From the NCBI GenBank assembly GCA_017883025.1, contig JADGOH010000079.1:1-44987 (forward strand): a stretch of DNA of 44,987 nt, written 5' to 3'. This stretch comes from Acidimicrobiales bacterium. GTDB taxonomy: Bacteria; Actinomycetota; Acidimicrobiia; Acidimicrobiales; RAAP-2. Below, in pieces: positions 5,080 through 44,765 of the stretch. The notes below the pieces were generated by a model. That model saw nothing but the letters and a program-made list of their open reading frames with translations. It was not told where the DNA came from and did not search any database. Made by a program: the position numbers and the translations under genes. Numbering within the stretch: the stretch's first letter is position 1; the number at the start of each line of letters is the position of its first letter.

Positions 5080-5625
5080 CCGCCGTTCCCGCCGCACTCG
5101 TCGACGGCGTCGACCTGTCCTACGAGCTGACCGGTTCCGGTCCCCGCGTCCTGCACTCCAACGGGTCGGGGGCCACACTCGAGGGCTCGCATCCGCAGGT
5201 GTCGCTCATCGGACGCGGTGTCGAACCCCTCGCCTTCGACCAGCGGGGGCTCGGGGCGAGCGGCCGCGCCCCCGGGACCCAACGGGATGGCCCGATTGGC
5301 GGCCGACGCCGCGGCACTGCTGGACGCAGTCGGGTGGGACACCGCGGCGGTCGTCGGCGTGAGCTCCGGGGGCATGGTGGCCCGTGAACTGGCCGTCAAC
5401 GTCCCGCACCGAGTGGAACGGTTGGCCCTCCCGTGCACGTCGGCCGGGGCCAGGTCCTCGAGCTCGTGCGGCGAGGAGGACGCTCCGCCGGCGAACTCCG
5501 AGACCATGGCGTCACGGGTCCCGGGAGCGGACCTCCACGTCTACGAGGGCGGCCACGCATCCTTCGTCCAGGGCCGCTCGGCGCCCCCCGACCTCGGCGC
5601 CTTGCTCGCGCCCCGTCGGTCGTGA
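5080..5625 (+). pseudogene. Decayed alpha/beta-hydrolase (frameshift plus internal deletion)
   Basis: The first part reads in one frame: 'LVDGVDLSYELTGSGP', then 'VEPLAFDQRGLGASGRA' near 5220-5265. The rest continues in the +1 frame from about 5270: 'LAADAAALLDAVGWD', the nucleophile elbow GVSSGG, and 'ARELAVNVPHRVERLAL'. After 'CTSAGA' (~5455) it jumps directly to 'PPANSETMASRVPGADLHV' and 'YEGGHASFVQ', the region around the catalytic histidine. Roughly 100 residues, including the lid and the strand leading to the catalytic acid, are missing compared with a usual ~260-280-residue hydrolase. One frameshift and one internal deletion make it a pseudogene. No convincing start codon is visible. 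Confidence 0.8.
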
Positions 5626-5693: not shown

Positions 5694-5699
5694 TAAGGT
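5694..5699 (+). promoter_or_regulatory. Candidate leaderless -10 box (TAAGGT) of heliorhodopsin gene
   Basis: TAAGGT lies 7 nt before the ATG at 5707. The same bases could be read as a weak AAGG ribosome-binding site with 8-nt spacing, so the sequence alone does not separate leaderless from leadered initiation. Confidence 0.45.
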
Positions 5700-5706
5700 G
5701 CCGCCC

Positions 5707-6501
5707 ATGCAGGTGCCGACGTCCACCGGGGCCACGACCGCCCTTCCGGGACCGGTCGCCCGCCTGCGGAGCTACAACCTGGTGGCCGCCGCGGCCCACC
5801 TGGTCCAATGCGTCCTCATCCTGGTCCTGGCCAACGACTTCGCCCTCCCCGTCACGGCCAGTTACATGACCGGCCCACCCGGAGGCCACGAGCCACGCGA
5901 CGTCGTCACCCTGTTCGACCTCCGCACCGCCTGGATCGTCGCCGCGTTCTTCTTCTGCTCGGCGATCGCCCACCTCGCCGTGGCCGGACCCGGGTGGACG
6001 CGCTACACGACCGACCTCGCCCGCTCCCGGAACCCCTACCGGTGGATCGAGTACTCGGTCAGCTCGTCGCTGATGATCGTGGTGATCGCCCAGCTGGCCG
6101 GCATCGCCGACGTGGCCGCGCTGATCGCCCTGGTCGGGGTCAACGCGTCGATGATCGCCTTCGGCTGGCTCCAGGAGCGCTATGAGACGCCGGGTGGCGG
6201 CTGGTGGCCCTTCGTCCTCGGATGCGGTGCCGGAATCACCCCGTGGATCGCCATCGGCGTGTACCTCCTCGGCCCGGGCAGCAGTGCCCACCCGCCGGGT
6301 TTCGTCTACGCCATCTTCTTCTCCCTCTTCGTCTTCTTCAACACCTTTGCCGTCAACCAGTACCTCCAGTACGCGCAGGTCGGCCCGTGGCGCGACTACC
6401 TGGTGGGCGAGCGGGCATACATCACGCTCAGCCTCGTGGCCAAGTCACTGCTCGCATGGCAGATCTTCGCCTCGACGCTGGCATCGCAGCCGGCGAACTG
6501 A
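5707..6501 (+). CDS. Heliorhodopsin (retinal-binding 7-TM photoreceptor)
   Basis: This 264-residue, seven-helix protein carries the heliorhodopsin signatures throughout. 'LANDFALPVT' (residues 41-50) and 'GPPGG' follow helix A. 'YRWIEYSVSSS' (111-121) holds the Schiff-base counterion, Glu115, in place of the Asp of type-1 pumps. Next come 'GVNASMIAFGWLQE' and 'PGFVYAIFFSLFVFFN', and 'LSLVAKSLLAWQIF' (241-254) contains the retinal lysine, Lys246. His31 and His89 match the two cavity histidines known in heliorhodopsin 48C12. Heliorhodopsins sit inverted in the membrane and have long photocycles; most are thought to be sensors or enzyme regulators, with function still debated. A GTG at 5698 is possible, but ATG 5707 has the better upstream context. 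No retinal synthesis genes (crtY, blh) are in the window. Confidence 0.96.
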   Translation: MQVPTSTGATTALPGPVARLRSYNLVAAAAHLVQCVLILVLANDFALPVTASYMTGPPGGHEPRDVVTLFDLRTAWIVAAFFFCSAIAHLAVAGPGWTRYTTDLARSRNPYRWIEYSVSSSLMIVVIAQLAGIADVAALIALVGVNASMIAFGWLQERYETPGGGWWPFVLGCGAGITPWIAIGVYLLGPGSSAHPPGFVYAIFFSLFVFFNTFAVNQYLQYAQVGPWRDYLVGERAYITLSLVAKSLLAWQIFASTLASQPAN

Positions 6502-6506: not shown

Positions 6507-7667
6507 GTGCCGACGGAACCACCCGCAGGCGACGCCGGCATCCCCGTGTCGGGCCACTGCGCCGAGCAGTTCGCCCCCGTGCGCCAGGAGTTCGTCCGGA
6601 ACTTCGTCGAACGGGGCGAGGTCGGGGCCGGCGTCACCGTGCTGGTCGGGGGCGAGGTCGTCGTCGACCTGGCCGGTGGGTGGGCCGACGCGGAGCACAC
6701 CATTGCGTGGCGCGGCGACACGCTGGTGGACGTCTACTCGGTCGGCAAGGCGGTCGTGGCGCTGCTCGTCCTGCAGCTCGTCGACGACGGCGTACTCGGT
6801 CTCGACGACCCCGTGGCCTCCGTGTGGCCCGAGTTCGCCGCCGAGGGCAAGGGCGCGGCCACCGTCCGCCACGCGCTGTGCCACCGGGCCGGTGTGCCGG
6901 CCATCCGGCGGCCGTTGACCAACGACGACCTGTGGGACTTCGCCACCATGACCGACGCGCTGGCCGCCACCGAGCCCTGGTGGGAGCCCGGGACCCGGCA
7001 CGCCTACCACACCAACACCTACGGCCACCTGGTCGGCGGGCTCGTCCACCGGGCGACGGGCGAGCTGCCGGGGACGCGGCTGCGCCCGTTGGCTGAGCTC
7101 GTCGGGGCCGACATCCACTTCGGAGTGCCCGACGCCGAGCAGGGGCGCTGCGCCGAGGTCCTGTGGGCGCTCGGCGGATCCCCGCCCGTGGTCGACACCC
7201 GCGCCCTCACCGGCGACGCACTGATGGTCCAGCTCAGCTACTTCAACCCGCCCGGATACTCGTCGTGGGGCGTGGTCAACACCCGGGAGTGGCGGAGCAC
7301 CCAGATCCCCTCCACCAACGGCCACGCCACCGCCAACGGCGTCGCCCGCGTCTACCAGGGCCTGCTCGAACCCGGGCTCCTGGTGTCGCCGGACCTCCTG
7401 GCCGTGGCGACATCGCCCCAGTCGGTCGGCTTCTGCCCGGTCCTCGGCGAGGAGGTCACGTTCGGACTGGGGTTCAAGCCCACCTCGGCCCGGCGGCCCT
7501 TCGGCCCGAACCCGTCGAGTTTCGGCCATTTCGGCACCGGCGGTGCAGTGGGATTTGCCGACCCCACCGCCGGCGTCGCCTTCGGGTACGCCATGAACCA
7601 CGTGATCCCCCGGTGGCAGAGCAGCCGGAACCGGGCGCTCATCGAGGCCCTCTACCGCTGCCTCTAG
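6507..7667 (+). CDS. Serine beta-lactamase-fold hydrolase (class C / EstB-like)
   Basis: This 386-residue protein (GTG start at 6507; GTG 6546 is an alternative) begins 5 nt after the heliorhodopsin stop. It has SVGK as SxxK (Ser78, Lys81), Tyr167 in 'YHTNTYG' at the YxN position, and 'HFGTGGAVGF' (His341) in place of KTG. This set is typical of actinobacterial class C-like esterases and peptidases rather than true antibiotic-resistance enzymes. No signal peptide is visible, so it is probably cytoplasmic. The likely activity is ester or amide hydrolysis through an acyl-serine. The tight spacing implies co-transcription with the photoreceptor gene. Confidence 0.88.
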   Translation: MPTEPPAGDAGIPVSGHCAEQFAPVRQEFVRNFVERGEVGAGVTVLVGGEVVVDLAGGWADAEHTIAWRGDTLVDVYSVGKAVVALLVLQLVDDGVLGLDDPVASVWPEFAAEGKGAATVRHALCHRAGVPAIRRPLTNDDLWDFATMTDALAATEPWWEPGTRHAYHTNTYGHLVGGLVHRATGELPGTRLRPLAELVGADIHFGVPDAEQGRCAEVLWALGGSPPVVDTRALTGDALMVQLSYFNPPGYSSWGVVNTREWRSTQIPSTNGHATANGVARVYQGLLEPGLLVSPDLLAVATSPQSVGFCPVLGEEVTFGLGFKPTSARRPFGPNPSSFGHFGTGGAVGFADPTAGVAFGYAMNHVIPRWQSSRNRALIEALYRCL

Positions 7668-7764: not shown

Positions 7765-8931
7765 ATGAGGATCCTCCACACCAGCGACTGGCACATCGGC
7801 CGGCGGTTCGAGCGCGAGTCACTCGAGGCGGACCAGCGCGCCTTCCTCCATTGGCTCGCGGACGTCGTCGCCGGCGAGCGTGTGGACCTGGTGCTCGTCG
7901 CCGGTGACGTCTACGACCGTTCGCAGCCCGCTGAGGACGCCGTGGCCCTGCTCGACGAGGGGCTCGACGGGCTGCGGGCGACCGGCGCCCAGGTGGCTCT
8001 GATCCCGGGGAACCACGACAGCGCCCGTCGACTCGGCTTCGGCGCCGGCCGCCAGGCGCTCGGCGGCGTCCACGTGTTCGCCGACGACCAGCGTCCCCCG
8101 GTGCCCTGGGTGTTCGCGATCCGGGACGAGCGGGTCGCCATCCTGGCCGTGCCCTTCCTCGACCCCTACGGGGTGCCCGCACCCCGCCAGGCACCCGACG
8201 GATCGCCCCGCAGCCGCACCCACGAACACGTTCTGGTTGACGCCGTCGAGTCCGGTCGCGGCCTGCTCGACCCCGACGACCCGGTGCCCACCATCTGCGT
8301 GGCCCACGCCTACGTGTCCGGGGCCGAGGAGTCGGACTCCGAACGGTCCCTGTCGGTCGGCGGCACCGACCGGGTCGACCCGTCGGTCCTCGCCGGGTTC
8401 GACTACGTGGCACTCGGCCACCTCCACCGCCCCCAACGGATCGGGGGCGACGACGCATTCGCCTACTCCGGCTCGCCGCTCCCCTACTCCTTCAGCGAGG
8501 ACCAGCCGAAGTCGGTGCGGCTCCTCGAGTTCGACGCCCGGGGCCTCACCGGGGTCCGCACGCTGCCGGTCCCCGTCGGGCGGCCGGTGGTCACGATCAC
8601 CGGCACCCTCGACGAGTTGCTCACCGACGCGTCCCACGATCGATGGCTGGGCCACTGGGTCGCCGCCCGGCTGACCGACGAGACCGTCCGGACCCAGCCG
8701 ATGGAACGGCTCCGCGAGCGGTTCCCCCACGCGGTCAACCTCCGCTACGTCCCGTCCGGCGACGGGTCCGCCGTCGCCTACGGGGCCGACGGGCCGGTGC
8801 TCGAGGAGCAGCCGAACGAGGAGGTGATCGTCGAGTTCCTGACCGAGCTGCGGGGTCGCCCGCCCGTCGACTCCGAACGGGCCCTGGTCCGCGATGCGCT
8901 CAACTCGACCCTCGGGACCGTCGACCGGTGA
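7765..8931 (+). CDS. sbcD: Nuclease SbcCD subunit D
   Basis: This 388-residue protein starts 'MRILHTSDWHIGR' and carries the calcineurin-like metallophosphoesterase motifs of the Mre11/SbcD family: DWH (Asp8, His10), GDVYD, GNHDSA, 'VAHAYV' and 'LGHLHRPQ'. With SbcC it forms the ATP-dependent exo/endonuclease that trims DNA ends and cleaves hairpins and cruciforms. Its stop overlaps the sbcC start by 4 nt (GTGA), the usual coupling for this pair. Confidence 0.97.
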   Translation: MRILHTSDWHIGRRFERESLEADQRAFLHWLADVVAGERVDLVLVAGDVYDRSQPAEDAVALLDEGLDGLRATGAQVALIPGNHDSARRLGFGAGRQALGGVHVFADDQRPPVPWVFAIRDERVAILAVPFLDPYGVPAPRQAPDGSPRSRTHEHVLVDAVESGRGLLDPDDPVPTICVAHAYVSGAEESDSERSLSVGGTDRVDPSVLAGFDYVALGHLHRPQRIGGDDAFAYSGSPLPYSFSEDQPKSVRLLEFDARGLTGVRTLPVPVGRPVVTITGTLDELLTDASHDRWLGHWVAARLTDETVRTQPMERLRERFPHAVNLRYVPSGDGSAVAYGADGPVLEEQPNEEVIVEFLTELRGRPPVDSERALVRDALNSTLGTVDR

Positions 8932-11900
8932 AGCCGCTCACGCTGCGGCTCGAGGCCTTCGGCTCCTACGCCGGCGTCCTCGAGGTCGACTTCGCCCGCC
9001 TGGGCCGCCACGGGGTCTTCTCCATCACCGGTCCCACGGGTGCCGGCAAGTCGACCATCTTCGACGCCATCGTCTACGCCCTGTACGACGACCTGCCCGG
9101 CTTCCGGACGGACAGCCATGTCCGGAGCCAGTACGCCGACGAGGGGACGCCCACATCGGTCACCCTCACCTTCGAGGCCGACGGGAAGGAGTGGGTCGTC
9201 GAGCGGTCACCGTCCCAGCCGCGTCCCCGCAAGCGGGGTGGCGGCCCGCCGGTCACCGACGACTCCCGGGTCACGCTGGCCGAATCGGGCACCGACGGGG
9301 GTGGGCTCACCCGCAAGCAGGCGGTGGCCGAAGAGCTCCTCCGCCTGGTCGGCCTGACCAAGGACCAGTTCGAGCAGGTGGTGCTGATCCCCCAGGGCAA
9401 GTTCGAGGAGGTCCTGAAGGCCGACACCAAGGACCGGGCCGAACTGCTCGGACGCCTTTTCCCCGTCGACGTCTTCCGACGGACGACCGACGCGCTCCGA
9501 GAGGTCGCCACCGCCCGGCGGACCGGCTACGAGGGGCTGCACGCCTCCGGCGCCGCTCTGGTCGAGCAGATCCGGAGTGACCTGGTGGAGGCACTGGGGA
9601 GGGCCCCCGACGCCGTGCCCGTGCCGTCGCCCCAGGACCCGTCACTCACCAGCGAAGGCTTCGACCCGGCCCGGCTCGACGAGCACCGGGCCGTGCTCGA
9701 CCAGGTCGCCGACGCCGTGGGGTCCGCCCGGGAGGCGGCCGGAGCCGACCTCGAGGCCGCCCGGTCCCGTCGGGTCGACGCCGAGGGCCAGGCCGACCGG
9801 TGGGACCGCTGGCAGGCGGATCGACGGGCCGCCCGGGACTTCCCCGACCAGGTGGAGGCCGACCGGCGCGCGTCCCGGGCAGTGGACCGGGCCCGCACCG
9901 TGGACCGGATGGGACCCGCTCTCCAGCAGTGGCGTTCGGCCACCGAGACGTTGACCCGAGCCGCCGCTGACGAGGAACGGCTACGGGCAGTGCTCGAGGG
10001 CGCCTGGGTCGACGGGTACGACCGGGCCGCACTGGACCGCGCCGCGGACACGACCGCACTGGCCGCCCGGGTCGCCGCCGACGCCGACGTGCTGGAGGTG
10101 GCCGACCGGGCCCATGCCGGGCTCGTCCGACGGGGTGCCGACCTCGACGCTGCCGAGTCGGCCCTGGCAGCACGCCGGGAAGCGGTCGACGCCGCGGTCG
10201 CGGCACTCGAAGACGCCGAGGCCCGGATCGCCTCCACACGGGCGTCGGCCGACGGCGCCACGACCCGGGCGGCGGGCCGGGGAGATGCCCAGGTCCGGGC
10301 CCACGGGCTCGAGGAGGCGGCCCGGGCGGCCGGGCGGCGCGACCAGGCGCTGGGCGATGTCGCCCGGCTGCGCGGCGCGCTCGCCGCGGCCACCGGTGCC
10401 GAGGACGAGGCGGCGGAGCGGGTCATCGCCCTGCGCACGGCCTGGCGGGCCGGGCTCGCCGGACGACTGGCCGAGGCCCTGGTCGCCGGCGACCCCTGCC
10501 CCACGTGCGGGTCGACCGACCATCCGGCCCCTGCCCGTGCCACGGACGACGCCCCGACCGATGAGGCACTGGCCGAGGCGGAGGATGCGCTGCGGGCCAG
10601 GGTCGAGGCGTCCCAGGCCGTCAAGCTCGAGCTCGCCGCCGCCGAGGCCACCGCCGAGGCGGCCGCCGACGCCACCTCCGGGGACCTGGCCGAGCTCACG
10701 GCCGAGCTCGCCGCCGCCCGGAGTGTGCTGGCCGCCCACGAGGCCGCCGAGGCCGAGGGCGTGCGCCTTCGCCAGGAGCTCGACACCCTCGAACGGGTCC
10801 AGATCGAGGACCGGGCCGCCGCGATCCGGGCGTCCGAGGCCCTCCAGATCGACCGGGCCGCACTCGGCGAACGCCGCGCCGGGTGGACGGCAGATCGAGA
10901 TGCCTTCGTGGCCGTGCACGGGGCCCTGGCGTCGACGGCGGCCGCCGCACGTGCCCGGCACGACCTGGCCGAGGGGTTGGACCGGCTCGGCGCCGTGCTG
11001 CAGGCGGCCCACGAGGCGACCGCGGCACTGGGCCAGGGCCTGACCGCGCTCGGCCCCACCCTCGCCGAGTTCGGGGTCGACGACCCGGCCGAACTCGAGC
11101 AGTGGGCCCGACCAGCCGACGCCGTCGACGAGGAGGCCCGGACGCTGGAGGGACGGGCCCGCCAGCGCCATGAGGTCGAGACCCGCCTGCGCCAGTACGA
11201 GGAGTCCGCGGGACCGGCCGATCGCCCCGATCCCGCTCCGCTCGCCGTGGTCGAGCAGGCGGCGGGCGCTCGGTACGAGGACCTGGTCGGCCGCCACGCC
11301 GTGGTGACGTCCCGGATCGAGTCCATCGACGGCGCCCGGGCCGCACTGACGACCCGGACCGGCGAGGTCGAGTCGGCCCGGCGCCTGAAGGAGGAGGCCG
11401 AGACCCTGTACGCCGCCTGTGCCGGGCTCGGCGCCGGAGCCGTCGGCTCCCGGGTGTCCCTCCACAACTGGGTCCTCGCCTACTACCTGCGCCAGGTGCT
11501 CGCCCAGGCCAACGTCCGCCTCGACGCCATGACCGCCGGCCGGTACACCCTGGGACTCGACCGCGAGTCCACCGACGGCCGCAAGGCATCCGGGCTCGAC
11601 CTCTCGGTCCTCGATGCCGAGACGGGCCAGCACCGGCCGGCCACCACCCTCTCGGGCGGTGAGACCTTCATGGCCGCGCTCGCGCTGGCCCTCGGGCTGG
11701 CCGACGTGGTGGCCGCCGGCTCCAACTACGCCATCGGCGCCCTGTTCGTCGACGAAGGGTTCGGGTCGCTGGACGGCGAGTCGCTCGACACGGTGATCGA
11801 CGTGCTCCGGTCGCTCCAGGACGGCGGCCGCATGGTGGGCGTGATCAGCCACGTCCAGGACCTGAAGGACGCCCTGCCCAATGGCATCGCCATCGCGCCG

Positions 11901-11945
11901 ACCAATCATGGCTCGGTCGCCACCATCCACTACCCGGACCCATGA
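8928..11945 (+). CDS. sbcC: Nuclease SbcCD subunit C (SMC-like ATPase)
   Basis: This 1005-residue protein has Walker A GPTGAGKS at 35-42, a long Ala/Glu/Arg-rich coiled coil, and the zinc-hook CPTC (Cys524, Cys527) close to mid-length. A second coiled coil, the ABC signature LSGGE near 908 and Walker B 'LFVDEGFGSLD' near 938 follow. This is the complete Rad50/SbcC layout. The ATPase heads clamp SbcD on DNA and the hook joins two coiled-coil arms. The GTG start at 8928 gives 'VKPLTLRLEAFGSYA', the expected N-terminus; the longer open frame upstream is the shadow of sbcD. The stop overlaps the next gene's ATG (ATGA). Confidence 0.97.
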   Translation: MKPLTLRLEAFGSYAGVLEVDFARLGRHGVFSITGPTGAGKSTIFDAIVYALYDDLPGFRTDSHVRSQYADEGTPTSVTLTFEADGKEWVVERSPSQPRPRKRGGGPPVTDDSRVTLAESGTDGGGLTRKQAVAEELLRLVGLTKDQFEQVVLIPQGKFEEVLKADTKDRAELLGRLFPVDVFRRTTDALREVATARRTGYEGLHASGAALVEQIRSDLVEALGRAPDAVPVPSPQDPSLTSEGFDPARLDEHRAVLDQVADAVGSAREAAGADLEAARSRRVDAEGQADRWDRWQADRRAARDFPDQVEADRRASRAVDRARTVDRMGPALQQWRSATETLTRAAADEERLRAVLEGAWVDGYDRAALDRAADTTALAARVAADADVLEVADRAHAGLVRRGADLDAAESALAARREAVDAAVAALEDAEARIASTRASADGATTRAAGRGDAQVRAHGLEEAARAAGRRDQALGDVARLRGALAAATGAEDEAAERVIALRTAWRAGLAGRLAEALVAGDPCPTCGSTDHPAPARATDDAPTDEALAEAEDALRARVEASQAVKLELAAAEATAEAAADATSGDLAELTAELAAARSVLAAHEAAEAEGVRLRQELDTLERVQIEDRAAAIRASEALQIDRAALGERRAGWTADRDAFVAVHGALASTAAAARARHDLAEGLDRLGAVLQAAHEATAALGQGLTALGPTLAEFGVDDPAELEQWARPADAVDEEARTLEGRARQRHEVETRLRQYEESAGPADRPDPAPLAVVEQAAGARYEDLVGRHAVVTSRIESIDGARAALTTRTGEVESARRLKEEAETLYAACAGLGAGAVGSRVSLHNWVLAYYLRQVLAQANVRLDAMTAGRYTLGLDRESTDGRKASGLDLSVLDAETGQHRPATTLSGGETFMAALALALGLADVVAAGSNYAIGALFVDEGFGSLDGESLDTVIDVLRSLQDGGRMVGVISHVQDLKDALPNGIAIAPTNHGSVATIHYPDP

Positions 11946-20688: not shown

Positions 20689-20949
20689 TTACAACCTGGT
20701 ACCCTGTGCGGTGTCGCCAGCCCGTTGAGCACGGTCCCGCCACCCTGCTCCGGGCCGGCGGCAACTGTCGGCGACGAGCGCGAGCAGTTCCGGCTCGGGC
20801 AGCGGCCGGGCCAGGTGGTACCCCTGGAGCAGGTCAACGCCGTGGGCGAGCAGCCTCGACCGCAGCGCTTCGTCCTCGACCCCCTCGGCCACCACGGTCA
20901 GCCCGAGCCGGTGGCCCAGGTCGCACGTCGTGGCCACGGACGGCGAGAG
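20689..20949 (-). pseudogene. EAL-domain C-terminal remnant (c-di-GMP phosphodiesterase)
   Basis: The minus strand reads 'CDLGHRLGLTVVAEGVEDEA' followed by 'LAHGVDLLQGYHLARPLPEPEL', the unmistakable final ~50 residues of an EAL domain, including the 'AEGVE' and 'QGY' motifs. Immediately upstream in this frame there is a stop codon (about 20965), and the ~200 residues with the EAL signature and metal ligands are absent, so the fragment cannot be active. It lies next to an intact GGDEF gene on the opposite strand. The ATG-like start at 20937 is inside the domain and has no ribosome site. Confidence 0.85.
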
Positions 20950-21290
20950 GGCTCAGGAGCTCGAGCAGGCTGTCCAGCGTGGGCCACGACCGCGTCCTCG
21001 GGAACCAGCCCACGTGCGCCTCCTCGGGGGACGAGCGGCGCGTGACCGCGGTGACCCGCCTCGTCGTGCCCTGGTCCTACTCCCACCCGCGCCACGACGC
21101 CGGCTCGTTCAGGCCGATGCCCATTCCCACGCGTTGGTTGGTCACGCCCGAACCTGAAGTCGTGAGGCCCGGCCCCACCCGTCAACGCGGTCACAGCCGA
21201 GGCTGCAGGCGGACCCGGAGCCGTCAAGTTCCCGGCCCGGCAGGTCGATGGAGTGGGGACACTCCTGGCACACGGAGGGCCTCGACGCCC
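20950..21290. other. Intergenic, 341 nt, no gene recognised
   Basis: This is the stretch between the EAL remnant and the GGDEF gene. All frames read as low-complexity or are interrupted by stops. I see no further EAL or GGDEF residues, so the 5' part of the lost gene has been deleted rather than frameshifted. GGAGGG at 21274-21279 is a candidate ribosome site for the next gene. Confidence 0.5.
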
Positions 21291-22397
21291 ATGGACCCGA
21301 CGAAGCACGAACTGATCGCCGACACGATCGGCACGGGGACCGACGTCGACGCGCGTCGGCGCTTCTGGCTCGCCCACATGCTCCTGGGCTTCAGCGTGTT
21401 CCTGTTGGAGACACTCGTGGTGATGCTCTACCTGGCCCTCACCCCCGACGGGCCGCACCGACTCCTCCTGTGGTGGATCGCCGCGTCCTGGCTCGCCTTC
21501 GGCGTCGCCGGCCTTGCCGGCGCCCCGGTCATCGCCACCCGTCCGTGGCGGTCGACGTACTCGGTGACGTGGACGATCGCCTCCACCTACGCCGTCGGGC
21601 TCGTCGCCATCCTCGACAACGGAGTGACCAGCCCGATCCTGCTGCTCCTCTTCCTCCCCCTCGTCTACGGCACGCTGATGTTCTCGCCCTGGTCGGCCGC
21701 GGCGTGCGGCGTGTCGACCGTGCTGTCCCTGTCGATCGTGGCCGCCGTCGATCGGGGGCTGGTGGCCGCCGAGGGCCGCACGTTCATGCTGTTCGCCTCG
21801 CTGGCGGGTGCCGCGGTGCTGTCCGTCACCTCGGCGATCAACCGGAGTCAGGTCGAGCGGCACGAGGCATCCCTCCTGGCCGTCCTCGCCGAGCTGGCCT
21901 CCACCGACGAGCTGACGGGGTGCACGGTGCGGCGGGTGCTGCGCCAGCGGACGGAGCAGGAGATCGAGCGCGCGCTGCGCAGCGGCAGCCCCCTCAGCCT
22001 GCTCATGATCGACGTCGACCAGTTCAAGGCCGTCAACGACAACTACGGGCACGTCGTCGGCGACCAGGTGCTGGCCGCCATCGGCAGGATCCTGATGGCG
22101 AACGTCCGGGCGTTCGACGTGGCCAGCCGGCTCGGCGGCGACGAGTTCGCCCTGCTCCTGCCCGAGACCAATGCCTCGGGCGCGGTCGCGGTCGCCGAAC
22201 GGATCTTCCGGGACCTGGCCAGCGAGGGCGAGGTCCCGGTGACGCTCAGCATCGGCGTGAGCAGCCTGGACCGGTCGCTCCCGACCATGGAGCACCTGTT
22301 CGACGAGGCTGACCTGGCCCTCTACCAGGTCAAACGGGCCGGTCGGGACGCCATCGCCGTGCGCGCCCCGGGCGCACCCGCACCGCTCGCCTGGTGA
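21291..22397 (+). CDS. Membrane-bound diguanylate cyclase (GGDEF)
   Basis: This 368-residue protein has about six N-terminal membrane helices (residues ~28-190, starting 'LLGFSVFLLETLVVMLYLAL'), a short coiled stretch, and a complete GGDEF domain from 'STDELTGC'. The active site GGDEF is at 282-286. The inhibitory I-site RAFD (RxxD) lies five residues before it, so product inhibition should be retained. 'DVDQFKAVND' carries the metal and GTP-binding residues. It would make cyclic di-GMP from two GTP in response to an unknown signal. The 'DELTGC' replaces the usual 'DxLTGL'. Confidence 0.94.
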   Translation: MDPTKHELIADTIGTGTDVDARRRFWLAHMLLGFSVFLLETLVVMLYLALTPDGPHRLLLWWIAASWLAFGVAGLAGAPVIATRPWRSTYSVTWTIASTYAVGLVAILDNGVTSPILLLLFLPLVYGTLMFSPWSAAACGVSTVLSLSIVAAVDRGLVAAEGRTFMLFASLAGAAVLSVTSAINRSQVERHEASLLAVLAELASTDELTGCTVRRVLRQRTEQEIERALRSGSPLSLLMIDVDQFKAVNDNYGHVVGDQVLAAIGRILMANVRAFDVASRLGGDEFALLLPETNASGAVAVAERIFRDLASEGEVPVTLSIGVSSLDRSLPTMEHLFDEADLALYQVKRAGRDAIAVRAPGAPAPLAW

Positions 22398-31633: not shown

Positions 31634-32782
31634 ATGAGCGAAGCGACGTGGGACATGACCAGGGCCTGGCGGGAGCTGCTGGACGGGCTCGCCGAGCTCG
31701 ACGCCCAGTTCCTGGAGGGACCGCGTGCAGTCGGCGACGAGCGGGCCGTGGCCGAGGGCTACCGGATGCTCACCACGGGGTTGTCGGTCGCACTTGACGT
31801 CTACCTCTACACCGATGCCGGTCGCCCCGCGTTCGTCGACGCCAACACGCCATTCCGCCGCGACCGCTCCTGGGGAGGCGACAACACCGACGCCTACTAC
31901 TCGATGGTCACCCTGGACGCCCGGCGCCGCTACCGGGTATCGGGCCAGCGCGGCGACAGCACCTATTTCTCCCTCACCGTCTACAACGAGCCCGGACCGG
32001 GACAGTGGTCCAACCGGATCATCGGGATCGTCAACGACTCCGACCTGGACATCGACGACGACGGTCGGTTCTCGTTCCTGATGGGGCCGTCGCTGCCGGC
32101 CGACTATGCGGGCCCGTTCATCGAGCTTGCCGAGGACACCCACGTGGCGTTCACCCGCGACTACCAACTCGACCCGGCCACCGGCCGACCGGTCACCTGG
32201 CAGATCGAGGCGCTCGATCCGCCGGACCCCATCGCCCGGACCGACGAAGACACCGCCGCGGCCCTGCGCGCCGCGCTGACCTGGGTGCAGACCCTGTTCC
32301 TCACCGTGCCGCTGACCGTGGCGCCCCGCGACGCGCCCCAGTCGCTCGGGCACAACAGCCCGCAGCTGGCCAACGAGTTCGCCGACCCCTATCAGGTGGT
32401 GGATGCCAACTTCGGCTGGTCGGCACGGGACGCCTGCTACGCGTTCTCCAGCTACCGCATCGAGCAGGGCGAGGCGCTCGTGATCACCCACCGGCCGCCG
32501 GAGTGCCGGTTCTGGAACCTGGTGGTGTGGAACCCGTTCCTGGCCACCGAGGTGCTGGGAGACGCGCACACCTCGATCAACAACGGCGCCGCCCGACCGA
32601 ACGCGGACGGCACGGTGACCATCGTGGTCGCCCACGACGACCTGGCTCACCCCAACGCGGTATCCACGGCCGGCCATGTCGACGGCGTCGTGGCGTTCCG
32701 GTGGTTCCTGGCCGACGTCGTCCCCGAACGACCGGTGGTCGACGTGGTAGCGGTGGAGGACGCTCCCACCGACGTCAGCTGA
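31634..32782 (+). CDS. DUF1214-domain protein
   Basis: This 382-residue protein ends with the DUF1214 signature region: 'NFGWSARDACYAFSSYRIEQ', 'ITHRPPECRFWNLVVWNPF', 'SINNGAARPNADGTVTIVVAH'. The middle part 'GDSTYFSLTVYNEP' is typical of the same group. The ATG is preceded by GGAGG at 31619-31623. Function is unknown; members are beta-rich and often found beside sulfotransferases and amidohydrolases in mycobacterial-type genomes. Here it is divergent from a sulfotransferase gene, which fits that co-occurrence. Confidence 0.87.
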   Translation: MSEATWDMTRAWRELLDGLAELDAQFLEGPRAVGDERAVAEGYRMLTTGLSVALDVYLYTDAGRPAFVDANTPFRRDRSWGGDNTDAYYSMVTLDARRRYRVSGQRGDSTYFSLTVYNEPGPGQWSNRIIGIVNDSDLDIDDDGRFSFLMGPSLPADYAGPFIELAEDTHVAFTRDYQLDPATGRPVTWQIEALDPPDPIARTDEDTAAALRAALTWVQTLFLTVPLTVAPRDAPQSLGHNSPQLANEFADPYQVVDANFGWSARDACYAFSSYRIEQGEALVITHRPPECRFWNLVVWNPFLATEVLGDAHTSINNGAARPNADGTVTIVVAHDDLAHPNAVSTAGHVDGVVAFRWFLADVVPERPVVDVVAVEDAPTDVS

Positions 32783-32828
32783 CCCGTCGCCGGTGGTGCC
32801 CCAGGGACGTCAGCCCTGACCGGTCGGA

Positions 32829-34148
32829 TCATTCGCCGGGTGGCGGCGCGATGTACTGGTAGTCGCAGCGGTAGCCGTTGGTCGGGCTCTGCACCGGCGG
32901 GTCGTCGAGCCGCTGGTAGTTGCCGTTCACAATCCGGCCCAGGAGGTAGCAGTTGCTGAGCGTCTTTGCCGCCGGGTTGGTCGGCGCCGCGATGTGGTTG
33001 CCGTCGAACGTCGTGATCTTCGACAGCGCCTGGAGCAGGCTCCCGCGGCTGGGGTTCGACCCAGCGCTCTTCAGGGCCTGGGCGAAGAGCTCGCCGGACA
33101 GCCACCCGTAGAAGGTGAACAGGTCGGGCGTGAACCCGGGCGAGACGGTCTGGACCCAGTGGTTGAACGTCGACACCGCCGGGATGGCCGGTGCGTCCTG
33201 GCCGAGATAGAGGGACTGGTTCTGGTCGAGGAAGTAGCCGTCGACCGCGGACGGCCCCCCGGAGTTCGCTACCAGCGTGGTCGTGTAGGCGGCCGCCCCC
33301 AGTACCACGACCGGGTGGAAGTTCTGCTGGACGAGGTCCTTGAGCAGCGACGACGCATAGTTGGCGGCGAGCTGGTCGACGAGGAGCATCTTGACGCCTG
33401 CCGACTTCATCGCCACCACGTCGGCGGTGAAGTCGGTCTGGGTGACGTCGAATGTCGGCGAGTAGATGACCTTGTACCCGACCTGCTCGAGCGCGTGCTT
33501 CTCCCCCGCCCATGCCGTCTGGGTGGTGGGGAGGTCACCGACGATCGTGCCGACGGCAGTGATGTCGTTCGGAAACTTCTTCTTGAAGTACTGGAGCGGA
33601 CCCTCCTCCCACCCACCGGGCTGCGGGATCGGCGCGTAGACGTTGGGCAGGTTGTTGGTGGCGTGGTCGATGCTCTCGGCGACCTTCGGCATGCCCGGGT
33701 TGGCGGCCAGTGCCTTCTCGCCGAAGTTGTCCTCGAGGGAGAACCCGCCGACCAGGGCGAAGTCGTCGGTGACCGCACTCGTGGTCGTCTGGAGGTTGCC
33801 GGCGCCCGTGAAGTTGTCGTCGAGGCCGTTCACGACGATCCTGCGCCCGTTGACACCCCCGGTCGAGTTGACGTAGGCGGCGTAGGCCTCGGTGCCGACG
33901 GCGGCGCCCTTGAACAGGCCCGCGGACAGGGTGGAGACGTTCGCCACCGTGACCGAGCCCGAGGTCACCCCGGTGTGGTCCGAGAATGCGCTCGACGGGA
34001 TCGACGGGCTGCCACCCGAGCCGCTCCCCCCGCCCGTTGTCGTCGTCGACGCTTTCGACGTGGTCGATGTGCAGGCGGCCATCCCCATGGCCAGCACGAC
34101 GGCCAGAACGACCGCGGCCGGCCGACCCCCCCGGGCGGTGATTCGCAT
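32829..34148 (-). CDS. ABC-type solute-binding lipoprotein (branched-chain amino acid type)
   Basis: This 439-residue protein has a signal peptide with the lipobox MAAC at about residue 26, a Ser/Thr/Gly linker, and a type I periplasmic-binding fold of the Peripla_BP_6 (LivJ-like) family: 'GLFKGAAVGTEAYAAYVNST', 'NGRRIVVNGLDDNFTGAGNL', 'DFALVGGFSLEDNFG'. Ligands of this family include amino acids, amides and aromatic compounds. GGGGGAG precedes the ATG. No permease or ATPase gene is adjacent, so it is an orphan that must use components encoded elsewhere or act as a sensor. Confidence 0.92.
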   Translation of the reverse strand: MRITARGGRPAAVVLAVVLAMGMAACTSTTSKASTTTTGGGSGSGGSPSIPSSAFSDHTGVTSGSVTVANVSTLSAGLFKGAAVGTEAYAAYVNSTGGVNGRRIVVNGLDDNFTGAGNLQTTTSAVTDDFALVGGFSLEDNFGEKALAANPGMPKVAESIDHATNNLPNVYAPIPQPGGWEEGPLQYFKKKFPNDITAVGTIVGDLPTTQTAWAGEKHALEQVGYKVIYSPTFDVTQTDFTADVVAMKSAGVKMLLVDQLAANYASSLLKDLVQQNFHPVVVLGAAAYTTTLVANSGGPSAVDGYFLDQNQSLYLGQDAPAIPAVSTFNHWVQTVSPGFTPDLFTFYGWLSGELFAQALKSAGSNPSRGSLLQALSKITTFDGNHIAAPTNPAAKTLSNCYLLGRIVNGNYQRLDDPPVQSPTNGYRCDYQYIAPPPGE

Positions 34149-34345
34149 GTCTCCCCCTAGTCCGCCCGCCCGAACACGTGCGAGCGGCTTCATCGAACCA
34201 GGTCCCCGGTGACAGGTCAAGGGACAACCAGGCGGGAGCGAGGAGCGGGAGGGGGAAGGACGGAGCAGGGCGGGGGGCAGGGCATACCCGAGCGCCGGTC
34301 CTGCGGCGGCGCTCGCCGACGTCGCGTCGCCAGGTCCCGGTGCAG

Positions 34346-34351
34346 TACGTT
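34346..34351 (+). promoter_or_regulatory. Candidate leaderless -10 box (TACGTT)
   Basis: TACGTT lies 7 nt before the GTG start of the ribonuclease D gene at 34359. There is no clear Shine-Dalgarno sequence. Confidence 0.55.
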
Positions 34352-34358
34352 CCAGGCG

Positions 34359-35558
34359 GTGAGCACCACCGACGGCACACCTGCCCTGATCGCCGAGACC
34401 GATGGGCTGGAGGCGCTCTGCGACGAGCTGGCCGACGAGGAGTTCTACGCCGTCGACACCGAGTTCCACACCGAACGCACCTACTGGCCCAAGTTGGCCC
34501 TCATCCAATTGGGATGGGCGGACCAGGTGGCCCTGGTGGACCCCCTTGCCGTCGATCCCGGACCACTGGGCCGCCTGTTCGCGGGGCCGGGCACCGCCGT
34601 CGCCCATGCCGCCGGGCAGGACCTCGACATCCTCCGAACCGCCTGCGGGGTGGCTCCGGCAACGGTGTTCGACACCCAGGTTGCCGCCGGGTTCCTGGGG
34701 ATGTCCACGCCCTCACTGGCCCGACTGCTCGACCAGGTCCTGGGGATCGAGCTGCCCAAGACCGATCAGCTGTCCGACTGGCTGCATCGGCCCATTCCCC
34801 CCGGTCAGCTGGCGTATGCCGCAGGTGACGTCGCGCACCTGCTGGCCCTCCGCTCTTCCATGGTCGACCTGCTCGAGGAGCGCGGTCGTCTCGCCTGGGC
34901 CATCGAGGAGTGCGCCCAGGTACTGCCCGGCCAGCGGCGCGAGGTGGTGCCCGAGCGGGCCTGGTGGAAGGTGGGGGACGTGCGCAAATTGACCGGCCGG
35001 TCTCGGGGCGTGGCCCAGGAGGTGGCGGCCTGGCGGGAACAGCGGGCTGCCGAGGTCGACCGACCCCGCCGCAGCGTGCTGTCGGACCTCGCGATCCTCA
35101 CGATCGCCCAACGGCCGCCCCGCAACCGTCAAGAGCTCGAGAAGCTCCGGGGCGTGGACACCCGCCACCTGGCCAAGGGCGCGGCCACCGAGATCCTCGA
35201 GGCGGTCCAGCGGGGACGGGCGCTGGAACATGACGACTTGCGGCTCCCCCCTGACGCGGCCGAGTCCCGGGCGTCCCAGGCCGCCGTGGCGGTGTGCGCC
35301 GGACTGGTCCGTCAGATCGCCGACGAGCTGCAGTTCGACCAGAGCCTGCTGGCCGCTCGGGTCGACATCGCCCAGCTGGTGGTCGGGGAACCGAGCAGGC
35401 TCGACCGGGGCTGGCGCGGGGACATCGCCGGCGGCCCCATCCGACGTCTGTTGGCCGGGGAGGTGGCCGCCGCCTTCGATCCCGACGGGCGGCTGGTGCT
35501 CGAAGCACGTTCCCACGTGCCCGACGGAACTACCCCTGGTTCCCGGGCCGCGCCATAG
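34359..35558 (+). CDS. rnd: Ribonuclease D
   Basis: This 399-residue protein has the three DEDDy exonuclease motifs: Exo I 'AVDTEFHTER' (Asp33, Glu35), Exo II 'AHAAGQDLDIL' (Asp88), and Exo III 'YAAGDVAHLL' (Tyr/Asp). An HRDC domain follows around residues 210-300 ('LAILTIAQRPPRNRQELEKL', then RGVD). It is a 3'-5' exoribonuclease that trims tRNA and other structured RNA precursors. The length fits actinobacterial RNase D. The GTG at 34359 is favoured over the long upstream frame by the TANNNT box. Confidence 0.96.
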   Translation: MSTTDGTPALIAETDGLEALCDELADEEFYAVDTEFHTERTYWPKLALIQLGWADQVALVDPLAVDPGPLGRLFAGPGTAVAHAAGQDLDILRTACGVAPATVFDTQVAAGFLGMSTPSLARLLDQVLGIELPKTDQLSDWLHRPIPPGQLAYAAGDVAHLLALRSSMVDLLEERGRLAWAIEECAQVLPGQRREVVPERAWWKVGDVRKLTGRSRGVAQEVAAWREQRAAEVDRPRRSVLSDLAILTIAQRPPRNRQELEKLRGVDTRHLAKGAATEILEAVQRGRALEHDDLRLPPDAAESRASQAAVAVCAGLVRQIADELQFDQSLLAARVDIAQLVVGEPSRLDRGWRGDIAGGPIRRLLAGEVAAAFDPDGRLVLEARSHVPDGTTPGSRAAP

Positions 35559-36041
35559 GAGCTCCGAGGAGCCGGGTGCACCGGGAGCACGCCCGCCGGT
35601 CGAGGCCCCGACAACCGGAGGTCGACCGCTGTCGGCCGCCGCGGCCGGGTGCCGCACCCGGCCGCGGCGGTAGTCTCGATCGGGTGACCTCGGATTCGAG
35701 GAGTTCGGAGCCGGGCGGCGGGACGGAGGAACGGTTCGGGCGCGAGTCTTCTCCCACGGCGATCCCCCGGCGTCTCGGATCGGTGCCGAAGACGTCCGGA
35801 CGTAGTTCGACGCCGACACGGACGCCCAGGGGTCACCACTCGATGCACCTCGGGAACCGTGTGGATCGGCGGAGCCGGTGGAGCCGGACCACCGAACGGG
35901 ACCGAAAGCGCGGCCGCGCATCTCCCGGATAGCCGTGTGCACGCGGACCGGACCGGGGCCAGACGACGCAGCTCGCTGCGCAGGCCGTGACGCCTCCGCT
36001 GCCGGCTCATCCGTGTCCGACTGTCCCACCGGGCGGAATCG
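35559..36041. other. Intergenic, 483 nt, no confident gene
   Basis: The stretch between rnd and the channel-like protein holds a perfect long hairpin (35636-35670) and a TAGTCT box at 35671-35676 placed 7 nt before a GTG at 35684. The frame from that GTG is 82 codons, Ser/Arg-rich, and unlike any protein I know, so I do not call it a gene. The rest shows nothing recognisable. Confidence 0.5.
35636..35670. repeat. Perfect 17-bp inverted repeat with 1-nt centre
   Basis: The left arm is CCGCCGCGGCCGGGTGC and the right arm its exact reverse complement, with a single C in the middle. It lies 78 nt after the rnd stop. No T-run follows, so it may be a GC-rich terminator-like structure, a cruciform-forming site or a protein-binding site. 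By coincidence or not, the window also encodes SbcCD, which cleaves such hairpins. Confidence 0.75.
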
Positions 36042-37217
36042 GTGAACGCGCTCCTGTTCGCGCTCGGGCTGACGATCGTGGTCCTCACCGTGTCCAACGT
36101 CCTCTTCACCCTGGTCCTCCCCCGCCAGCCCTCCGGGATCGAGCGGATGAGCCTGGTCGTGAACCGCACCGTCCGACTGGCGTTCATCGCGCTCTCGCGC
36201 CTGGCGTCGACCTACGAGGGCAAGGACGCGATCCTGGCGCCCACCGCGCCTGTCGCCCTACTGGTCCAACTCCTGTTCTGGGCGGCGACCCTGGTGCTCG
36301 GATTCGGGCTCATGCTGGTGGGAACGACGCACAGCGTTCCCGACGGGCTGCTCCAGGCGCTGACCGCCCTGTTCACGGTCGGGGCCGTCCACGTCGGAGG
36401 ACGGCCTGACGCCGGGATCGACATCGCCGTCGGGGCCGTCTGGGTGGTGACCGTCGCACTCCAGATCGCCTACCTGCCGGCGATCTACAGCTCCTACAAC
36501 CGCCGCGAGGGACTGGTCTCACTCCTCGAGAGTCGGGCCGGCGAGCCGGCATGGGGTCCGGAGCTCCTGATCCGCCACCAGCTGGTGGGCATCACCGACA
36601 CACTGCCGGACCTCTACGCCGCATGGGAGGAGTGGGCGGCAGACGTCGCCGAGAGCCACACCACCTATCCGATCCTGCTGCTCTTCCGGTCCCCCGAGCC
36701 ATGGCTCTCGTGGACGATCGGCCTCCTGGCCGTGCTCGACGCCGGCGCCATGCATCTGTCCCTCGCCCCGGACACGGCCCCCTCCCAGGCGAGGCTGTGC
36801 CTACGGATGGGGTTCACGCTGACGAACCGGGTGGCGGCCTCGCTGGGTTGGGAGGTCGACCCCGACCCCGACCCCGAAGGGCCGATCCAGCTCACCTTCG
36901 AGGAATTCGCGCGAGCGGTCGCACTGCTGGAGGACTGCGGCTTCCCCACGGAGCGGTCCGCCGAGGAGGCGTGGCCGGACTTCCGGGGCTGGAGGGTCAA
37001 CTACGAGCGCGTCGCCTATCGACTGGCCGACCGCATGACCGCCCCGCCCGCTCCGTGGTCCGGGGCACGGCGCCACCTCCGGACCGGGGTGGTCGAGCCC
37101 CGACGGCCACCCCAGCGTCGCCCGGCCGGGGAGTCCGCAGTCGTCGAGCGCCCCTCGTTCGTCAACCCGGCCCGCGGCCGCCATGCCTCCGATGACACGG
37201 ACCAGCCCGGGACCTGA
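36042..37217 (+). CDS. Membrane protein resembling 2-TM ion-channel proteins
   Basis: This 391-residue protein has an N-terminal helix ('LLFALGLTIVVLTVSNVLFTLVL'), a second helix at about 72-95, a re-entrant-like stretch 'SVPDGLLQALTALFTVGAVH', and a further helix ('IDIAVGAVWVVTVALQIAYLP'). This order (TM, pore loop, TM, cytosolic domain) recalls bacterial potassium-channel-like proteins, but the TVGYG-type filter is replaced by 'TVGAVHVGG', so ion selectivity is doubtful. The C-terminal ~200 residues are soluble, charged, and end in a Pro/Arg-rich tail. The GTG start has a weak ribosome site. Confidence 0.65.
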   Translation: MNALLFALGLTIVVLTVSNVLFTLVLPRQPSGIERMSLVVNRTVRLAFIALSRLASTYEGKDAILAPTAPVALLVQLLFWAATLVLGFGLMLVGTTHSVPDGLLQALTALFTVGAVHVGGRPDAGIDIAVGAVWVVTVALQIAYLPAIYSSYNRREGLVSLLESRAGEPAWGPELLIRHQLVGITDTLPDLYAAWEEWAADVAESHTTYPILLLFRSPEPWLSWTIGLLAVLDAGAMHLSLAPDTAPSQARLCLRMGFTLTNRVAASLGWEVDPDPDPEGPIQLTFEEFARAVALLEDCGFPTERSAEEAWPDFRGWRVNYERVAYRLADRMTAPPAPWSGARRHLRTGVVEPRRPPQRRPAGESAVVERPSFVNPARGRHASDDTDQPGT

Positions 37218-37310
37218 TCCTGCGGCTGCAGGCCGTTCCCTCTACACCACCGGTTGTCCCGAACGTCCCCACGGGGGCGGTCGGCCACATCCCGGTTCCC
37301 GGACCGGGAG

Positions 37311-37973
37311 CTACCGGTCCTGCGGGAGATCGATCCGTTCCACCGAACCACCCCGGCCGACGAGGATCGTCCGCACGAGGTCCGGTGGGAACAGGCCGTG
37401 CCCGACCACTCCCGGCGTCCCGTCGAGCATGCCGGCAAGCACTGCCGGGTCCTCGAACTCCCCGGTGAAGTCGGCCAGCACGCCGCCGTCAGGGGTGAGC
37501 GGATCATCACGACGACGGGCAGCGCCGATACGGGCGAGCGTCGAGGCCGCACCGAAGGCCAGGACCTCGAGTGGGACGGGGGCGTGGAGCGCGCCGACCG
37601 GCTTGCTGGAGTCGGCGATCACGACGAAGGCGTCGGCTGCGGCAGCCACCAGCTTCTCTCGGGTGTGGGCGCCTCCTCGCCCCTTCACCAACCACCCGTC
37701 CGGAGCGATCTGGTCGGCTCCGTCGATCGCCAGGTCCAGCCGATCGGACGAGAACGCCTGCACCTGCAGCCCGAGCTCCACGGCGATCTGCCGGGTGCCT
37801 GGCGACGTGGCCACGCATCGGATCGACAGGGCGCGTCGTGCCAGCGCCGGCAACAGGTACGCCACCGTCGTCCCGGTCCCGAGGCCGACGGTCATCGAGT
37901 CCTCGACCAACTCGGCGGCTGCCTCCGCCGCATGTCGCTTTTCCACTTCCCGGTCCGGCTCCACCGACGTCAC
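37311..37973 (-). CDS. rpiA: Ribose-5-phosphate isomerase A
   Basis: This 220-residue protein (GTG at 37973) has the RpiA motifs GLGTGTT (30-36), DGADQ (84-88), KGRGG (97-101) and TREK (104-107), whose Glu is the catalytic base. It interconverts ribose-5-phosphate and ribulose-5-phosphate in the pentose phosphate pathway. Two substitutions stand out: the usual DGADE is DGADQ, and KGGG is KGRG. The start is set by family length; the upstream frame adds 31 unlikely residues. It lies 96 nt downstream of the small ESFPASDP gene on the same strand. Confidence 0.9.
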   Translation of the reverse strand: MTSVEPDREVEKRHAAEAAAELVEDSMTVGLGTGTTVAYLLPALARRALSIRCVATSPGTRQIAVELGLQVQAFSSDRLDLAIDGADQIAPDGWLVKGRGGAHTREKLVAAAADAFVVIADSSKPVGALHAPVPLEVLAFGAASTLARIGAARRRDDPLTPDGGVLADFTGEFEDPAVLAGMLDGTPGVVGHGLFPPDLVRTILVGRGGSVERIDLPQDR

Positions 37974-38069
37974 GGGTGGAGGGGCCCGCCGGGCGTCATG
38001 AACTCGCACGGACGCTCCGCACCGGGGCGCCGCGATCGGACCCTGGCCGACCAGCGGCCCCCACACGGG

Positions 38070-38258
38070 TCACACCGGTGGGGTCGGATCTTCCGGCTCC
38101 CGGTCACCGGACCGGTATGCCGGATCATCATCGGCACCGGCCCACGACGACGCCGGGTCGCTGGCAGGGAACGACTCCTCCTCGGCCTCGTCCACCCTGG
38201 CGTCGAGCGCCTCCGACTCTGCGCCCGGCCGCCTGCCGGGCGCGCTGTCCGTGCTCAT
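38070..38258 (-). CDS. Small acidic 'ESFPASDP' protein
   Basis: This 62-residue acidic protein contains 'DEAEEESFPASDPAS', a short conserved motif that I recall from many small bacterial proteins of unknown function. It has no membrane segment and looks intrinsically disordered. The ATG at 38258 is preceded by TAGCCT at 6 nt, the leaderless pattern; the GAGGAC between could also act as a ribosome site. It probably shares a transcript with rpiA. Confidence 0.75.
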   Translation of the reverse strand: MSTDSAPGRRPGAESEALDARVDEAEEESFPASDPASSWAGADDDPAYRSGDREPEDPTPPV

Positions 38259-38264
38259 GTCCTC

Positions 38265-38270
38265 AGGCTA
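38265..38270 (-). promoter_or_regulatory. Candidate leaderless -10 box (TAGCCT)
   Basis: TAGCCT on the minus strand, 6 nt before the ATG at 38258; it would drive the small protein gene and perhaps rpiA. Confidence 0.5.
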
Positions 38271-38391
38271 GTTGTCCGCCGCCGCGACGGATCCCGCGCT
38301 GACGGGCCCCACCCCGCCCGGTCGCCCCGACGGCGGCATCGGGTGGAGGCGGAGGCGCGTGCAGCGCGCGGCGATCGGTCGGCCGTCCGCT

Positions 38392-39450
38392 TCAGCAGAT
38401 CCGGGGAAGCTGCTCGCCGAGGGGCAGATCGAGGATGCGCCGGGCACCGAATGCGGTCCGGGCCACGACCACACCGGGGTGGTCGGCGGTCACGTCGCCG
38501 ATGACCACCGCGTCGCGCCCGTCGGGGTGTGCGGTCATGGCAGCCATGACGGCGTCCACCGACCGGTCGGGGACGATGGCCACCAGCTTCCCCTCGTTTG
38601 CCACACTTATCGCATCGAGACCCAGGATCGAGCACGCAGCGGCCACCTCGGACGGGACGGGCACGGCGGCCTCGTCGTACTCGATGCCGACGGCACCCGA
38701 CTCGGCGATCTCGCACATCGATGCAGCCAGGCCACCCCGGGTCGGATCCCTCAGCACGTGGAGGTCGCGGCAGGCGTCGAGCATCACGGACACCAGGGCG
38801 GCCAGTGGCGCACAGTCGGAGCGGACCTGGGTACCGAACTCGAGTCCCTCGCGCTGGGACATGACGGCGATCCCGTGCAGGCCGATCGACCCGCTGACGA
38901 TGACCCGGTCCCCGGGTGTGGCGCGGGTGGGACGGATGTCGACGCCCTCGGGGATCAGACCGATGCCGGCGGTGTTGATGTACATGCCGTCGGCCATGCC
39001 GGCGTCGACCACCTTCGTGTCGCCGGTGGCGAGTCGGACCCCGGCCCGCTGGGCCGCCTTGCCGAGCTCGGTGGCCACCCGGCCCAGGACGTCGAGGGGC
39101 AGGCCCTCCTCCAGGATGAAGCCGGTGCTGAGCGCGATGGGCTGCGCTCCGGCCATGGCCACGTCGTTGACGGTGCCGTAGACCGCCAGCTCACCGATCG
39201 AACCGCCGGGGAAGAACAGGGGGCGCACCACATAGGAGTCGGTCGAGAAGGCCAGGCGCTGTCCACCCAGATCGACCGTGGCCGCGTCGTGGAGGACCGC
39301 CGACGGCTCCACCCCGAACGCGGGGAGGAACAGGTGGGTGATCAACTCGGCCGAGAGCCGACCGCCGCCTCCGTGGCCGATCATCACCCGGTCGTGGTCC
39401 CGCAGCGGGAGCGGGCACGACCAGGCAGCCGGGTCCACGGGCTCAGGCAC
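38392..39450 (-). CDS. hypE: Hydrogenase maturation protein HypE
   Basis: This 352-residue protein has the PurM/AIR-synthase-like fold pattern ('[13 protein letters not shown]', '[20 protein letters not shown]', then [12 protein letters not shown]; '[18 protein letters not shown]') and ends in PRIC. The terminal cysteine receives the carbamoyl group from HypF and is dehydrated to thiocyanate, the source of the CN ligands of the [NiFe] site. The GTG start at 39450 overlaps the hypD stop by 8 nt, indicating translational coupling. It is the last hyp gene of the operon. Confidence 0.97.
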
Positions 39451-40573: not shown

Positions 40574-40848
40574 GCCGGACCGGCCACAGCCGCCGGACGC
40601 CCGTCGACGCCCAGGTTCTCCTCGAGGATGCCCAGCTCCTTGAACATGGCCAGGGTCTCCAGGGCGGAGGCCTCGTCGACCTGGGAGATCGCGAACCCGA
40701 CGTGGACGATCACGTAGTCTCCGCACTCCACCTCGGGAAGGTAGGCCAGGCACACGCTCTTGCGTATGCCGTCGAAGTCGACGGTCGCCATGAGGGTCTG
40801 GCGCTCCTCCCGGATCCCGATGACACGACCTGGCACGGCGAGACACAT
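40570..40848 (-). CDS. hypC: Hydrogenase maturation chaperone HypC
   Basis: This 92-residue protein starts MCLAVPG, where Cys2 (exposed after Met removal) coordinates the Fe(CN)2CO unit together with HypD. The OB-like barrel ('[20 protein letters not shown]', then [13 protein letters not shown]) and the C-terminal helix are complete. It sits 2 nt after the hypF stop and overlaps hypD by 4 nt. Confidence 0.97.
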
Positions 40849-44689: not shown

Positions 44690-44765
44690 TGGCAGTCCCA
44701 ACGGGGTTCGAACCCGTGTTCCCACCTTGAGAGGGTGGTGTCCTAGGCCGCTAGACGATGGGACC
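44690..44765 (-). tRNA. tRNA-Glu (anticodon CTC)
   Basis: The minus strand gives a full cloverleaf: acceptor GGTCCCA paired with TGGGACT (first pair G-U, usual for tRNA-Glu), anticodon stem CCACC/GGTGG with loop CTCTCAA (anticodon CTC), T-arm ACGGG-TTCGAAC-CCCGT, discriminator G and an encoded CCA (44690-44692). It reads GAG codons. Confidence 0.96.

Follow-up and report, generated by a model that had tools for sequence, protein, structure and literature searches.

A canonical heliorhodopsin gene beside a predicted beta-lactamase-fold esterase gene in an Acidimicrobiales genome

The window analysed here, a stretch of 44,987 nucleotides from an Acidimicrobiales bacterium, is contig C114 of genome G000 (2.5 Mb in 178 contigs, 71.65% complete) and carries an intact gene for a heliorhodopsin (HeR), followed at short distance by a gene for a predicted esterase. 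Heliorhodopsins are retinal-binding seven-helix photoreceptors with a slow, sensory-type photocycle under light, and the window protein is confirmed as a canonical member, ordinary as a protein. We give roughly even chances to the reading that it works as such a photoreceptor, with scavenged or cleavage-derived retinal and with the co-transcribed esterase as a light-modulated partner. The two genes are:

5707..6501, plus strand: HeR gene, complete and intact, 264 aa, ATG 5707 to TGA 6501
6507..7667, plus strand: esterase-like serine hydrolase of PF00144, start GTG 6507 chosen by hand, 5 bp past the HeR stop

The identity of the HeR protein is carried by both profiles and fold. It scores 328.2 bits against Pfam PF18761 (cut-off 26.7, E = 3.5e-98), the sole Pfam family at E ≤ 0.01, where PF01036 (type-1 rhodopsin) gives no match, and 322.4 bits against NCBIfam NF038020 (cut-off 100). 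The PDB sequence matches at E < 0.01 are heliorhodopsins throughout (48C12, E = 2.8e-77; 6is6, E = 2.3e-57). An AlphaFold model built from 38 sequences (pLDDT 90.4) superposes on 48C12 with a root-mean-square deviation of 1.3-1.4 Å, and the ten top Foldseek hits are HeRs, with E values from 2.0e-17 to 1.2e-21 for the HeR structures, compared with 2.2e-4 for the best non-HeR rhodopsin. A type-1 rhodopsin or another seven-transmembrane family is thus ruled out by Pfam, NCBIfam, a genome PF01036 search and Foldseek, and the heliorhodopsin call made earlier in a sequence-only reading of this DNA holds, as the profile searches return heliorhodopsin alone. Weak PF01036 matches, under the cut-off, occur in five other HeRs of the GTDB family. 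The closest comparison is 48C12 from an uncultured freshwater actinobacterium (PDB 6su3, 6su4, 6uh3), which has the same fold at 50-52% identity in structural alignment; the fold match implies an inverted topology with a predicted cytoplasmic N-terminus.

Conservation was assessed on an alignment of 117 sequences, the window HeR included. They come from the 118 distinct loci that a similarity search with this protein recovered; a length filter removed one of the 118 from the alignment and tree, for which proteins longer than 300 aa were trimmed to their last 300. Glu115 and the retinal lysine Lys246 are invariant (117/117 each). Glu115 aligns with the counterion site of 48C12, which we take to be E107 in helix 3, and Lys246 lies within the final helix (231-259) of the model, in line with the helix placement expected for it. 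His31 is present in 111 of the sequences (the rest being four gaps and two Leu) and His89 in 115 (two Leu); the conserved histidines of 48C12 are presumably H23 and H80. These four residues were rightly listed as signatures by the earlier reading. The same list included NDFALPVT, which varies across the family (N43 in 58, D44 in 28, P48 in 89 and V49 in 100 of the 117), corresponds to NDFALPMT in 48C12, and is a lineage motif, no family signature. Counterion, retinal lysine, two histidines and NDFALP are therefore common to 48C12 and the window HeR; according to PMC9726877, Glu107 is the proton acceptor.

HeR genes were found in 50 of 172 genomes of the GTDB family and in five of the 14 of the genus. 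The HeR tree places the window protein among Acidimicrobiaceae HeRs, its nearest named relatives coming from uncultured Acidimicrobiaceae metagenome bins (L035, L036, L048). Together with the HeRs of congeners G016 and G019 it forms a group (100/99) that G017 joins next (100/95), and these four fall inside a 44-row clade (100/99) to which the majority of the family's HeRs, though not every one, belong. G018 carries the remaining HeR of the genus, which is of a separate lineage and stands at a different locus (L115), where the gene 55 bp downstream looks by eye like an aquaporin-type channel. A mobile or viral origin was rejected: 50,697 phage records gave no match at E 1e-5, viral contigs gave no relative to peptide patterns of the window HeR alone, a search reaching close relatives only, and plasmid records gave two matches at about 42%.

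The HeR open reading frame could also be read from an earlier GTG at 5698. One element bears on the choice of start:

5694..5699, plus strand: TAAGGT, a -10-like element 7 nt ahead of ATG 5707, possible leaderless start

Because this element ends 7 nt before ATG 5707, its position favours that codon as the start, without proving it. Leaderless promotion as a special HeR trait was discarded, since a -10-like element precedes 22 of 89 HeR genes and 137 of 668 other genes, a small difference, and a scan for sigma-70 consensus promoters and terminators found nothing. Pairwise comparison of the HeR genes that four congeners carry at this locus (six pairs) gives dN/dS values by NG86 of 0.12-0.25 at dS 0.68-1.07, so the HeR gene is maintained and no chance reading frame. 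The corresponding six pairs of esterase genes give 0.21-0.24; both genes are under purifying selection.

The downstream gene is predicted to encode a beta-lactamase-fold esterase. Its script-chosen start, ATG 6456, would overlap HeR by 46 bp. The product scores 210 bits against PF00144 (cut-off 27) and matches the carboxylesterases 8j5v (2.3e-75) and 5gmx (2.2e-67) over its full length. The serine motif of beta-lactamase-fold esterases is SxxK, and the SVGK of the window protein aligns with the serine stretch of the solved enzymes, as does its GTGG region. With 8j5v, 5gmx, 5gkv, 7y3z and 3zyt, which we take to be family VIII carboxylesterases, it shares the full-length match, S-V-G-K and GTGG; unlike them it is encoded beside a HeR, and it is a putative enzyme known from sequence. 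The NCBIfam LipL model scores 170 bits, under its cut-off of 650. An antibiotic resistance role is unsupported: the class C beta-lactamase model NF033085 gives 25.3 bits (cut-off 415), the best class C family 31.5 (cut-off 860), and all 25 NCBIfam models listed stay under cut-off.

The order HeR-esterase occurs in four genomes of the genus, with gaps by script of 14 bp in G016, 25 bp in G019 and 56 bp in G017, besides the window. Upstream of the pair, and downstream of it, lie:

5095..5625, plus strand: alpha/beta hydrolase gene remnant with approximate start, Pfam piece 5218-5622, compared with relatives' intact copies
7765..8931, plus strand: SbcD, exonuclease subunit (Pfam and NCBIfam), the next gene after the esterase
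8928..11945, plus strand: SbcC-like, named by sequence and by its place after SbcD

Compared with the intact copies in relatives, the window alpha/beta hydrolase gene is broken by a frame change and has lost its middle part. G017 has it intact upstream of HeR; in G016 and G019 none was found beside HeR, and a divergent gene, probably a putative membrane transporter by its sequence, stands upstream instead. In HeR-less G008 (L157) and one copy in HeR-less G009 (L155), an intact alpha/beta hydrolase overlaps the esterase start by 4 bp, GTGA; a second G009 copy (L156) has the same overlap, read at the DNA level. The G009 copies lie on two contigs, one holding the left flank and the other the right, and may come from two strains or result from a split. 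In G008 the interval from the esterase to the following shared gene gave no sbcD or sbcC match, which means that conservation of the right flank is incomplete. As the locus occurs with and without HeR in congeners, HeR is a presence/absence gene inside a shared gene block. The defined neighbour gene credited to this HeR from the sequence is thus borne out as an esterase gene syntenic in four genomes of one genus, yet the association is not obligatory, two relatives lacking HeR at the locus.

Host synthesis of retinal, left open by the sequence-only reading, can be narrowed down in part. No match to PSY (PF00494), BCD (PF15461) or type-1 rhodopsin (PF01036; E ≤ 0.001) was found in the 71.65% complete G000, nor in any of the 14 genomes of the genus; crtE, crtI and crtY were not searched. 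Across the 172 family genomes PSY is found in 32, BCD in none, and type-1 rhodopsin above cut-off in three, all of which also carry HeR. No positive control rang in the BCD searches of G000 and of the family; in a set of 21 genomes from which HeR loci came, three of them again members of the genus, BCD exceeded its cut-off in one genome and gave one further match below it, so the search can detect the family. PSY is rarer in HeR carriers of the GTDB family than in non-carriers (3/50 against 29/122, Fisher p = 0.005, kinship uncorrected). RPE65-family oxygenases are present in 14/14 genus genomes and, above cut-off, in 50/172 of the family; in 29 of the 50 HeR carriers, PSY and an RPE65-family gene above cut-off are both missing. 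The three genes in G000, a genome without a PSY match, are:

C150:122-1429: RPE65-family oxygenase (L170)
C141:46410-47702: RPE65-family oxygenase (L171)
C111:21353-22639: RPE65-family oxygenase (L172)

A twin-arginine-like, lipoprotein-like leader is visible by eye at the start of the L172 product. Since PSY and BCD matches are missing while all 14 genomes have RPE65-family genes, the retinal source is probably uptake of retinal or cleavage of imported carotenoids. HeR carriers without retinal synthesis genes are described for Ca. Actinomarinales in PMC7771536.

According to the reading proposed above, Lys246 would be the attachment site of all-trans retinal and Glu115 its counterion. The host would take retinal up, or an RPE65-family oxygenase would release it from carotenoids or apocarotenoids that are imported. 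HeR would head a short transcript that includes the esterase gene; the two genes are adjacent, and co-transcription is probable. The cytoplasmic loops of HeR might then contact the esterase, so that light would modulate the enzyme, and light control of the esterase is, by analogy, the likeliest output of the HeR. This analogy draws on three published pairs of HeR with neighbour-encoded partners: glutamine synthetase (PMC9529153), photolyase (PMC9769723) and an ABC transporter (PMC11109279). As in the AbHeR-glutamine synthetase and OcHeR-OmrDE ABC transporter systems, the window HeR is co-directional with its possible partner gene; unlike there, the partner candidate is a PF00144 esterase. The neighbour of 48C12 differs as well: a glutamine synthetase gene lies near it (PMC9529153), where the window HeR has an esterase gene.

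Gene neighbours guide the current identification of HeR functions, one partner at a time, and the esterase adds a neighbour type outside the ten groups named in the survey PMC11109279, which include alpha/beta hydrolase and no beta-lactamase family. Among papers holding both terms, heliorhodopsin and beta-lactamase, PMC11109279, PMC8612252 and PMC9529153 did not appear; supplements were outside the scope of that search, and the pair is not claimed to be unreported. In one paper holding both terms, bla is a resistance marker. A genetic contrast is available in close relatives, some of which have HeR at this locus and others not, and the missing PSY and BCD matches together with the carotenoid-oxygenase homologues in 14/14 genus genomes make retinal supply a testable question.

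Several observations weigh against the reading of a HeR with cleavage-derived retinal and a light-modulated esterase. A close esterase homologue stands by HeR at four of the 118 distinct loci, all in the window genus, and the pair is missing from the other 114, including that of G018; L123 has a single weak 33% esterase match distant from HeR (HeR coordinates were set as given in gene calling across loci, and six of the 118 have less than 1 kb downstream). The esterase gene occupies the same locus without HeR in G008 and G009, and homologues at 68-70% identity occur without HeR in G007, G011 and G013, so the esterase does not need HeR. On the retinal side, the association of HeR with RPE65-family genes in the GTDB family is not significant (19/50 against 31/122, p = 0.14), and the nearest NCBIfam model to L170, the 8'-apo-carotenoid 13,14-cleaving one, scores below cut-off (451 against 675 bits), which leaves its substrate unassigned. 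PDB matches of L170 include carotenoid 9,10-dioxygenase and apocarotenoid-15,15'-oxygenase, and also lignostilbene oxygenases of the same family. MtCCO (Rv0654) of M. tuberculosis, which we infer to represent the 13,14-cleaving model, cuts carotenoids at both C13-C14 and C15-C15' according to the review PMC5133782. Finally, the HeR, RPE65 and esterase trees conflict on the branching of G000, G016 and G019, and in the left flank G000 resembles HeR-less G008 and G009 (genes at 90-95%) more than HeR-bearing G017 (81-85%); HeR presence therefore does not simply follow descent.

Because the esterase occurs in HeR-less relatives and HeR neighbours vary elsewhere, it is almost as likely that the position of this canonical HeR is incidental, between two hydrolase genes that were formerly coupled, and that any signal goes to something encoded elsewhere. 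The wide differences in neighbourhood among the 118 loci, the GTGA overlap of the two hydrolase genes in HeR-less congeners and the confinement of the pair to one genus all agree with such a position. Conversely, the order HeR-esterase is kept in four genomes whatever the state of the upstream hydrolase, be it intact (G017), broken (window) or not found (G016, G019), and the short gaps suggest one transcript, although four genomes are few and drift could account for them. Two further explanations concern the HeR itself, and both seem very improbable. Light-driven or light-gated ion transport, as reported for viral V2HeR3, fits poorly with the bacterial 48C12 as nearest solved relative, with the tree position among Acidimicrobiaceae HeRs and with the statement in PMC11109279 that bacterial HeRs do not pump ions. 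An opsin that stays retinal-free in its host and has a light-independent role would agree with the missing PSY and BCD matches of the genus, with the rarity of PSY in HeR carriers and with the 29 carriers that have neither gene; it would, however, have no need of the lysine and counterion that are invariant in 117/117 HeRs, and the RPE65-family genes in all 14 genus genomes speak against it as well.

As to how the arrangement arose, HeR may have entered a two-gene hydrolase unit in which the esterase became its partner under light control and the alpha/beta hydrolase first coupled to the esterase decayed in most carriers, a scenario that we consider unlikely. If true, the HeR-less relatives with the overlapping hydrolase pair would offer a natural with/without comparison for the recruitment of a new HeR partner. 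The esterase tree needs two changes of HeR presence, and the RPE65 tree does not order the six-genome clade (G000, G008, G009, G016, G017, G019), so that HeR may have been either gained or lost; rpoB was unusable as a marker, with none in G000 and a fragment in G008.

At other loci of Acidimicrobiaceae (L017, L019, L024, L030, L117 and others), a gene named from its sequence as NAD-dependent epimerase-like lies near HeR; this cluster comprises nine loci, with the gene immediately downstream of HeR in six. Elsewhere in the window, a GGDEF diguanylate cyclase gene (20706-22394, plus strand) lies about 14 kb from HeR, and seven hand-picked open reading frames from 32650 to 40714, whose frames may be wrong, have no Pfam match. 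A HypF carbamoyltransferase gene (40854-43265, minus strand) and genes for tRNA-Glu (CTC; 44690-44765) and tRNA-Gln (CTG; 44877-44950), both on the minus strand, follow towards the end of the contig.
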